NCBI GenBank assembly: GCA_023133275.1
Contig: JAGLWU010000009.1
Location: forward strand, 1-35,777
Origin: Candidatus Moraniibacteriota bacterium
GTDB lineage: Bacteria > Patescibacteriota > Minisyncoccia > Moranbacterales > GCA-2747515
Direction: 5' to 3'
DNA length: 35,777 nucleotides
Shown: positions 11,783-14,962 of the stretch, in pieces
Position numbering within the stretch: the first letter of the stretch is position 1
Layout of the letters: each line of letters begins with the position of its first letter
The notes under the pieces: model-generated
What the model saw: the letters and a program-made list of their open reading frames with translations, nothing else
Told to the model about the DNA's origin: nothing
Databases searched by the model: none
Translations under genes and position numbers: made by a program

Positions 11783-14700
11783 ATGTCTAAAGATTTTTCA
11801 AAAACTTACAATCCTCAAGAAGTTGAAGATGACATTTATAAAAAATGGGAAGAAAGTGGATATTTTAATCCTGACAATTTAGATGGTGAACCATATTCCA
11901 TAATGATGCCACCACCAAATGTTACCGGAGTGCTTCATCTCGGTCATGCAATGGAAAATTCAATTATGGACATAATGATTCGCTATCAACGCATGAATGG
12001 TAAAAAAGCACTTCTCCTCCCTGGAACAGATCACGCAGCCGTGGCCACTCAAGCAAAAGTAGAAAAAATATTAATTGAAAAAGGTATTAAAAATCCGCGC
12101 GAAGAACTTGGTCGAAAAAAACTACTTAACGAAATTCGTGAATATGCTGAAAATTCAAAATCAACTATCATTTCACAAATTCGTAAAATGGGTACGAGTT
12201 GCGACTGGAGTCGTTTAGCTTATACATTTGATGAAACCCGATCACAGGCAGTTAATACTGTATTTGTAAAAATGCACGAAGATGGATTAATCTATCGCGG
12301 ACATCGAGTGATCAATTGGTCTGTTAAAGGTCAATCTACTTGTTCTGATGACGAATTGGAACATATTGAACGACCAGCCAAATTATATACTTTTAAATAT
12401 AGTAAAGATTTTCCAATTACAATCGCTACAACACGACCAGAAACAAAACTTGGTGATACGGCAGTAGCAGTTAATCCAGATGATAAAAGATACCAGGAAT
12501 TTATTGGTAAAATATATACTGTTGATGTGGGTGCAAAAAACCCCCTTGAAATTAAAATTATTACTGATTCTGAAGTTGAAAAAGATTTTGGAACTGGAGC
12601 ACTTGGAGTAACTCCGGCACATAGTCCAATTGATTTTGCAATGTATGAAAAACAAAAAGCTAAAAATGATCCTATTGGTTTAATTCAAGTAATTGATAAA
12701 GATGGAAAAATGACAGCTGAAGCTGGCGTTAATTATCAAGGACTTTCAGTTGATAAAGCTCGAGAAAAATTTGTTAATTACTTAAAGGAAAATGATTTAT
12801 TAGAAAAAGAAGAAGAAATTACGCAAAATGTTGGTACTTCAGATAGATTTGGTGATGTTATAGAATCGATTCCAATGACTCAGTGGTTTATTGATGTTAA
12901 TAAAAAAATTCCTGGAAAAAATAAAAGTTTAAAGGAGTTGATGCAGGAAGCTGTGCGAACTGGACATAATAATAATCCTAAACAAAAAATAAATATTACA
13001 CCCAAACGATTTGAGGAAACTTATTTTTCTTGGATTGATAATTTACGAGATTGGTGTATTTCACGACAAATTTGGTGGGGTCATCAAATCCCAGTTTGGT
13101 ATCGAGAAAATAATGGAGAAAAAGAAATTTTTGTCGGAGAAAATAAACCTAAAGAAAAATATAATAAAGTTGTTTTATTACATGCTTGGGGATCTGATCC
13201 AACAGAAGCATTTTTTCCATGGCTAAAAAAAGAATTAGAAGATCTTAATTTACACGTTGAAGCACCTAAATTACCAAATGCTGAAAATCCAAATTACGCT
13301 GAATGGTTATCTGAGTTTAAAAAATTAAATATAGATGAAGATACAATTGTTATTGGACGTTCTTTGGGCGCAACATTAGCTTTAGCAACAGCACAAGAAG
13401 GTCATAAATTTGGTAAATTAATAGCAGTTTGCACACCTTTAGAAAATGAGGCTATTCCTGATTTTTTTAATGATATTGGTGAATGGAAATTTGATAAAAT
13501 AAAAAATAATATTAGTGAAATTGAAGTTTTACATTCTACTGATGATCCTTACATTCCCAATGAAATGTCTGAAAAATTATCTGAAAAATTAAATGTACCA
13601 CTCACAATAGTGAAGAAGGCTAATCATTTTACAGGAGACAAGCATCAAGAAATTTTAGATTCTTGCAAATTGTGGCAACAAGATCCTGATACTTTAGACA
13701 CTTGGTTTTCCTCTGGACTTTGGACATTTTCAACATTAGGCTGGCCTGAAAAAACCAAAGACTTCAAAGATTTCCATCCAACAAATTTCATGACAATGGG
13801 ACGAGATATTATATTCTTTTGGATGGCACGTATGATACTAATGACAACCTACACATTGGATGAAATACCTTTTAAAGATGTCTATCCCCATGGAATGCTT
13901 ACTGACAAGGAAGGTAATAAATTTTCAAAATCACTTGGAAACGCCATGGATCCAATAGATATTGTAGAAGAGTATGGTGCTGATGCTCTGAGACTTAGTT
14001 GCATTACAGGAATATCACCTGGTAATGATTTAAAAATTTATCCAAAAAAAATTGAAAGTAGTCGAAATTTTACTACAAAATTATGGAATATTGGTCGTTA
14101 TATAAATTCAGCATGTCCTGATTTACAAAATAATATTCCTAAAAAATATAATCTAACAACGACCGATAAATGGATTTTAACTAAACTTATTGAAATTACA
14201 AAAGAAGCTACTGCTGACATTGAAAAATATGATTTTTCTCAAGCTAGCGAAAAACTACGGAACTTCACTCGAAATGATTTTGCCGACTGGTATGTTGAAG
14301 TTCATAAAATAGAAAAAAATGATGCAATTCTAATTTACGTTTATAAACAAATTGTGAAAATGTGGCACCCTTTCATACCTTTCGTAACTGAAAAAATTTG
14401 GCAAGAAATGTTTGCAACTGATAAGAATAATTTATTAATGGTTGAAAAATGGACTGACAATAAAACGTTAAAATCTGAATTGGACAATCCTGAGCTTGAA
14501 AATAATTTTGCTTTGATTCAAGAATTAATTGTGAAAATTAGAAATATTCGTTCAACTTACAACGTAGCGATTAATGAAAATGTAACTATTACTTTGGTAA
14601 ATTCTGATGAAAATGAAGAAATAAAAGAAAATAAAGAAATAATTAAAAAATTAGGTAATATTTCTGAAATTAAAATTATCGAAAAAGATGAGATTCAAAA

Positions 14701-14962
14701 ACAATCTGCTTCAGATGTTGTTGGCGATTTGAAATTGTATGTTCATTTGGAAAATGTGATTGATATTAAAAAGGAAAAAAATAGAATTGAACAGGATTTG
14801 CGGAAAACTATTGGTTATCAAAAAGGATTGGAAAAAAGATTGTCCAGCGAACAATTTGTAAGTAAAGCTCCTGAAAATGTTGTTAATCAAGAACGAGATA
14901 ATTTTAAAAAAACTCAAGAAAAAATAATTAAATTAGAAGAACATTTGAAAAATTTAAGTTAA
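11783..14962 (+). CDS. valS: Valine--tRNA ligase with inserted RBBP9/YdeN-like alpha/beta hydrolase domain (about 13163-13665)
   Basis: PPPNVTGVLHLGHA (HIGH); CP1 editing TTRPETKLGDTAVAVNP...GTGALGVTPAHSPIDF; KFSKS; C-terminal coiled coil; insert VVLLHAWGSDPTEAFFPWL...IGRSLGATLAL...LHSTDDPYIP...ANHFTG. Confidence 0.95.
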   Translation: MSKDFSKTYNPQEVEDDIYKKWEESGYFNPDNLDGEPYSIMMPPPNVTGVLHLGHAMENSIMDIMIRYQRMNGKKALLLPGTDHAAVATQAKVEKILIEKGIKNPREELGRKKLLNEIREYAENSKSTIISQIRKMGTSCDWSRLAYTFDETRSQAVNTVFVKMHEDGLIYRGHRVINWSVKGQSTCSDDELEHIERPAKLYTFKYSKDFPITIATTRPETKLGDTAVAVNPDDKRYQEFIGKIYTVDVGAKNPLEIKIITDSEVEKDFGTGALGVTPAHSPIDFAMYEKQKAKNDPIGLIQVIDKDGKMTAEAGVNYQGLSVDKAREKFVNYLKENDLLEKEEEITQNVGTSDRFGDVIESIPMTQWFIDVNKKIPGKNKSLKELMQEAVRTGHNNNPKQKINITPKRFEETYFSWIDNLRDWCISRQIWWGHQIPVWYRENNGEKEIFVGENKPKEKYNKVVLLHAWGSDPTEAFFPWLKKELEDLNLHVEAPKLPNAENPNYAEWLSEFKKLNIDEDTIVIGRSLGATLALATAQEGHKFGKLIAVCTPLENEAIPDFFNDIGEWKFDKIKNNISEIEVLHSTDDPYIPNEMSEKLSEKLNVPLTIVKKANHFTGDKHQEILDSCKLWQQDPDTLDTWFSSGLWTFSTLGWPEKTKDFKDFHPTNFMTMGRDIIFFWMARMILMTTYTLDEIPFKDVYPHGMLTDKEGNKFSKSLGNAMDPIDIVEEYGADALRLSCITGISPGNDLKIYPKKIESSRNFTTKLWNIGRYINSACPDLQNNIPKKYNLTTTDKWILTKLIEITKEATADIEKYDFSQASEKLRNFTRNDFADWYVEVHKIEKNDAILIYVYKQIVKMWHPFIPFVTEKIWQEMFATDKNNLLMVEKWTDNKTLKSELDNPELENNFALIQELIVKIRNIRSTYNVAINENVTITLVNSDENEEIKENKEIIKKLGNISEIKIIEKDEIQKQSASDVVGDLKLYVHLENVIDIKKEKNRIEQDLRKTIGYQKGLEKRLSSEQFVSKAPENVVNQERDNFKKTQEKIIKLEEHLKNLS

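Follow-up and report, generated by a model that had tools for sequence, protein, structure and literature searches.

How often errors arise at branched-chain residues is set by the editing activity of the isoleucyl-, leucyl- and valyl-tRNA synthetases (IleRS, LeuRS and ValRS), for which the CP1 domain is regarded as the single hydrolytic module. Among class I synthetases, an editing domain is confined to these three enzymes (PMC9023258). The human serine hydrolase RBBP9 cleaves bonds to amino acids bearing a free alpha amine, which is bound by its residue Glu108; the amino acids that it traps are hydrophobic, and the trapped adducts include Leu/Ile (PMC8866121). Here we describe a gene in which relatives of these two systems are joined, with a domain of the RBBP9/YdeN type lying inside a ValRS, in a 35,777-nucleotide stretch of DNA from a Candidatus Moraniibacteriota bacterium (the whole of which we call the window). 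The architecture is real and unusual: it is a synthetase with an added catalytic-type domain, and no description of such inserts was found in the open-licence literature.

A serine hydrolase-type domain within valyl-tRNA synthetase

The ValRS gene occupies positions 11783-14962 of the forward strand, as do all of its features given below, and encodes 1059 amino acids in an ATG frame that is uninterrupted throughout, as the original prediction had stated. The equivalog models PRK05729 (E 1e-285) and TIGR00422 (E 3e-261) match both flanks of the insert, and the other hallmarks of the family are also present: the HIGH motif in the form HLGH (11936-11947, aa 52-55), near-invariant in the ValRS alignment; the KMSKS motif in the form KFSKS (13919-13933, aa 713-717), in conserved columns; the anticodon-binding domain (14165-14590, aa 795-936; PF08264, E 2e-30) and the C-terminal tRNA-binding arm (14762-14956, aa 994-1058; PF10458, E 7e-13). 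The host part of the full-length model matches Thermus ValRS (1gax) with a TM-score of 0.83, normalised by target. The protein thus shares HIGH, KMSKS, CP1, the anticodon domain and the C-terminal arm with bacterial ValRS as represented by 1gax and TIGR00422, but differs from it in having an enzyme domain in place of the zinc-ribbon link and G and S in place of K270 and D276 of CP1. Its closest named ValRS relatives are those of Magasanikbacteria, Uhrbacteria and Buchananbacteria. The flanking genes have housekeeping or envelope functions (PolA, DnaK, Hsp20, a penicillin-binding protein and an MnmA-type thiouridylase), and no phage or defence setting was seen among the neighbouring genes, with the exception of a C5 cytosine DNA methylase at the contig end (103-1278). 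The methylase is followed by a 252-amino-acid gene (1291-2049) without a Pfam match, and the two are possibly a restriction-modification pair.

The insert (13166-13669, aa 462-629) is preceded by the strand EIFVG and followed by QDPDTLDTWF. It is entered from a ribbon strand, ENNGEKEIFVGENKPKEKYNK (13103-13165), where relatives show WY..IYVG..P..W.QD, and the return to the host sequence, WQQDPDTLDTWFSSGL or nearly so (13670-13717), is highly conserved in ValRS. The alignment to 1gax breaks off at residue 419 and restarts at residue 447, which places the insert within the zinc-ribbon segment; in the window ValRS this segment contains no cysteines. The insert lies in a ribbon on the protein surface, flanked by the two halves of the catalytic core, at a site where the link in ordinary relatives is 17-40 amino acids long, in keeping with the expectation that ordinary ValRS has only a short connection here.

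The claim that this segment is a complete RBBP9/YdeN-like hydrolase was borne out by profile search, by comparison with PDB sequences and by fold prediction. PF06821 (Ser_hydrolase) spans aa 464-619 (13172-13639) and scores 35.2 bits (E 1.5e-8) with the whole protein and 40.4 bits (E 3.7e-10) with the segment alone, above its curated cut-off of 22 bits, and phmmer against the PDB finds RBBP9 at E ~1e-14 and YdeN at 4e-10. The AlphaFold (AF2) model of the domain, built on 25 aligned sequences from the window and the other loci, has a pLDDT of 94.9; its top seven PDB matches in Foldseek are all RBBP9/YdeN entries (TM 0.83-0.87, with RBBP9 the best at 0.87), and the next-best fold trails them by over five orders of magnitude in E-value. 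Confidence in the fold of the insert is likewise high in the full-length ValRS model, whose alignment included six insert-bearing rows. An intein was considered and rejected, the insert having the RBBP9 fold and no Hint match among the Pfam hits.

The predicted nucleophile Ser527 (13361-13363, in the motif GRSLG), the acid Asp588 (13544-13546) and His615 (13625-13627) occupy columns that are invariant across 25 aligned RBBP9-type domains. A triad of these residues had been proposed with either Asp587 or Asp588 as the acid; it is Asp588, the second Asp of DDP, that aligns with the second Asp of STDDP in RBBP9. The insert has in common with human RBBP9 and Bacillus YdeN, both of PF06821, the fold (TM 0.87 and 0.85), the GxSxG nucleophile and the positions of Asp and His, but it is only 27% and 20% identical to them, is embedded in a synthetase and has GRSLG rather than GHSxG. 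The alpha-amine anchor of human RBBP9, Glu108 and Tyr99 (PMC8866121), is not conserved: Tyr99 falls in a loop that is shortened by deletion, and the position of Glu108 is occupied by E, K, S or P among the ValRS copies. Since neither residue is conserved, the specificity of the insert may differ from that of RBBP9.

The same insert is present, in frame and with the same junctions, in six further genomes from three families, one (G047, locus L004) in the same order and the others (G275, G351, G240, G219 and G372) within the class. In searches of the class, E-values are 1e-79 to 1e-83 for the ValRS copies and ~1e-30 for the best stand-alone proteins, making the ValRS copies a distinct subfamily; no ValRS-type copy was found outside the class when the ValRS-copy profile was run against 380 genomes over the phylum. 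In the window genome, nothing apart from the embedded domain matches PF06821 above the cut-off, and the LeuRS carries no insert. Presence of the insert varies within a family.

An altered CP1 editing domain

The CP1 domain (12356-12841, aa ~192-353 by alignment to 1gax) retains TTRPET and was described in the original prediction as kept. This holds for the domain but not for two of its conserved editing-site positions. The editing motif (12605-12634) reads FGTGALGVTPAHSPID where the Thermus counterpart is FGTGALKVTPAHDPLD, with G275 at the position of Thermus K270 and S281 at that of D276, so that one of the three canonical residues is left (D279, as D284). The E. coli counterpart of K270, Lys277, is presumably important for editing. 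The same change, from K..D to G..S (or T..S), occurs in ValRS across many Patescibacteria, whether insert-bearing or insert-free. Because insert-free relatives share it, the change in CP1 did not follow from the insert, nor is the insert a required replacement for CP1. The further suggestion of two hydrolytic centres in one enzyme is accordingly weaker than first stated: the hydrolase triad is intact, but CP1 in this clade is without the canonical Lys and one Asp, with or without the insert. Enzyme inserts accompany 11 of 48 altered CP1 motifs against 1 of 50 of the K/D type (p 0.002, hand-counted), an association confounded by phylogeny because the K/D-type sequences are mostly from other phyla. 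The insert might yet compensate for the altered CP1.

Enzymes embedded in the editing synthetases

RBBP9 profile searches that were blind to host identity, with 30 long frames checked, yielded 32 embedded domains, distributed over LeuRS (22), ValRS (7), IleRS (2) and a glycosyltransferase (1). The host body restarts after the insert in all 29 synthetase frames. The placement of 31 of the 32 copies in ValRS, LeuRS or IleRS is beyond chance under random placement by residue count, the copies not being independent of one another. Ser and His are present in every copy; as the acid, 28 copies have Asp and the remaining 4 have Glu. In the domain tree there are several separate embedded lineages, which entered this class of hosts at different sites. 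The glycosyltransferase copy (L148, contig 25 of G044) belongs to the LeuRS-type clade, which suggests movement between host genes.

Both embedded and stand-alone RBBP9 proteins are found in some genomes at the class level. Within the order, a strong embedded copy and a strong stand-alone copy never occur together, and in G107, which has both, the embedded copy is weak. The idea that the embedded domain has taken the place of a stand-alone gene was considered on these grounds and set aside: the p-value was 0.12 or 0.04 depending on the cut-off (hand-read counts), lineage is a confounder, and the pattern fails at the class level.

RBBP9 is not the only enzyme at or near these sites. A histidine phosphatase occupies the ValRS link in L015, L039, L040, L041, L066, L184, L185 and L213, and in L170 the link holds a histidine phosphatase and an RBBP9 domain in tandem. 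Pfam identified those of L066, L170 and L213, and the RHG motif or a family search those of L015, L039, L041, L184 and L185; in L040, L170 and L213 the RHG motif has lost its Arg. Histidine phosphatases also occur in the IleRS of L157, L159, L160, L161, L186, L187, L188, L189, L190, L191 and L192. In the order, all 14 long-frame histidine phosphatases lie in IleRS or ValRS, and wherever junctions were read (including the IleRS of L157, L159, L160 and L161) the insert is upstream of the DxLDTWF motif. The ValRS linker carries a PhzF-like isomerase of ~230 amino acids in G344 (L212; PF02567, E 2e-29), an insert without a Pfam match in G312 (L214) and a long segment in G018 (L162), the latter two both in the range of ~100-170 amino acids. 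In LeuRS, NUDIX domains, most of them with a recognisable Nudix box, stand beside the RBBP9 copies of L150, L153, L154, L175, L178, L179 and L180, and the LeuRS of G056 (L144) contains both a PD-(D/E)XK_3 domain (GxxExxY-type) and an RBBP9 domain. One NUDIX domain is embedded in the IleRS of L195. As Ap4A is a by-product of synthetases, its clearance by the NUDIX inserts is a testable idea. The presence of histidine phosphatase and PhzF in the ValRS link, and of NUDIX and PD-(D/E)XK in LeuRS, means that the sites accept unrelated chemistry; neither histidine phosphatase nor PhzF is capable of deacylating tRNA by serine-hydrolase chemistry.

Short in-frame repeat peptides (for example NSKFKIQNSKL, NQESGIRNQES and CHSREGGNP/LDSRLRGND) were seen in the synthetase linkers and beside the inserts of L019, L027, L034, L146, L147, L150, L160, L170 and L213, and may mark a route of insertion. 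An Uhrbacteria ValRS frame of 1113 amino acids (L035) has a normal linker, and its extra length must therefore lie elsewhere.

Possible roles of the insert and comparison with known systems

The fold, triad, constraint, position and host restriction, read jointly, lead us to favour, tentatively, an active accessory hydrolase tethered to ValRS and acting by a Ser-His-Asp mechanism, alongside which the host would go on charging tRNA-Val. Its predicted substrate would be an ester, thioester or amide whose aminoacyl or acyl part is small, probably hydrophobic, and either produced or encountered by the branched-chain synthetases; our best guess is a compound of this aminoacyl or acyl type located at the synthetase itself. 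Candidates include a misacylated tRNA freed from the core, an aminoacyl derivative that is damaged or non-protein, and an inhibitor directed against the synthetase. A bolder version, which we consider unlikely, is that the embedded RBBP9 domain provides proofreading at a second centre whose chemistry is unrelated to the first, acquired by lineages in which the CP1 editing site had lost its conserved Lys and one Asp, and that it belongs to a broader tendency among Patescibacteria to place catalytic inserts in the three editing class I synthetases. More generally, the repeated occurrence of catalytically intact hydrolase inserts in exactly IleRS, LeuRS and ValRS would point to a remodelling of the proofreading synthetases in Patescibacteria, and the recurrence there of this and other small enzymes suggests an undescribed route by which new chemistry is joined to the apparatus that determines how accurately the genetic code is translated.

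It is also quite possible that the domain is a useful metabolic hydrolase, active but unrelated to tRNA charging, which in a streamlined genome is accommodated by an abundant protein in one of its permissive loops, the tether having no function. This explanation stays close because unrelated enzymes (RBBP9, histidine phosphatase, PhzF) use the same loop, and it would sit well with the absence of a strong stand-alone RBBP9 from the seven genomes with a ValRS copy, with the LeuRS-type copy in a glycosyltransferase and with the variation of the insert within a family. Other large proteins would, however, be expected to serve as hosts too, yet Ile-, Leu- or ValRS account for all but one of the RBBP9 copies and for every long-frame histidine phosphatase; entry of several RBBP9 lineages into the same host class at different sites, and the genomes that hold embedded and stand-alone copies together, also speak against it.

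The history of the insert bears on another explanation. The ValRS inserts form a single clade in the insert tree (support 100/100), while the insert-bearing ValRS bodies are split among three well-supported positions close to insert-free relatives, and a single clade of insert-bearing hosts is rejected (p-AU 1e-73; 6e-5 for the window and L004 alone). Identity between the window and L004 is 66% in the insert against 53% and 43% in the two host halves, and the window host halves are 82% and 60% identical to those of insert-free ValRS from its own family. From these sequence comparisons we infer that lateral movement between ValRS genes is probably a better fit than repeated loss from a common ancestor, an ancient presence followed by many losses being a possible alternative history. 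The conflict between the insert and host trees, and the higher identity of the insert, would equally be expected of a site-specific mobile insert that spreads between ValRS genes at one conserved site through recombination in its flanks, somewhat like an intein but unspliced, and persists mainly by moving. We regard this as decidedly unlikely, since there are no intein, endonuclease or transposase features within the insert, the triad and purifying selection suggest a catalytic role, and ancient presence with many losses offers another account of the trees.

A hydrolase that destroys ester- or amide-bearing natural inhibitors of the branched-chain synthetases at their target would explain the restriction to Ile-, Leu- and ValRS and a patchy distribution that differs from that of the hosts; it nevertheless seems improbable, with no inhibitor, producer or resistance context and with mostly housekeeping neighbours. 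The chance is smaller still that the insert is purely structural and has kept its active site by inertia, although it does occupy a ribbon close to the catalytic core and is predicted to fold within its host. The dN/dS of the insert is 0.09-0.17 among f49/f75 relatives, against mostly 0.05-0.11 for the N-terminal and 0.09-0.25 for the C-terminal half of the host (Nei-Gojobori estimates, with many dS values high); on this measure the insert resembles the C-terminal half and is under purifying selection. Between families, synonymous sites are near saturation and the catalytic residues are nonetheless kept, which makes a structural-only or decaying insert unlikely; with Ser and His never lost in the embedded copies, the structural option raised in the original prediction is disfavoured. 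An assembly chimera, finally, is rejected because the junctions recur in frame at the identical site in six other genomes, giving seven independent carriers, and homologues of the insert keep its fold and its triad.

For the tethered accessory hydrolase that we favour, mutation of one serine would tell the added centre apart from the original one. Should the domain prove to be a passenger, a conserved loop of an essential enzyme that repeatedly takes in whole enzymes would still be a useful site for engineering, and a caution for annotation.

Among described systems, the editing domains of other synthetases (CP1 of class Ia and INS of ProRS; reviewed in PMC7373986) resemble the present case in that a synthetase carries a hydrolytic domain. 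CP1 and INS are long-established deacylase folds, whereas the insert is a predicted alpha/beta-hydrolase, has a Ser-His-Asp triad and is present in addition to CP1. A class I synthetase with an extra enzyme domain is also known in the IleRS with GNAT (NCBIfam NF040702, ileS_w_GNAT); there the added domain is an acetyltransferase and the host is IleRS, whereas the insert in the window is of the hydrolase type and its host is ValRS.
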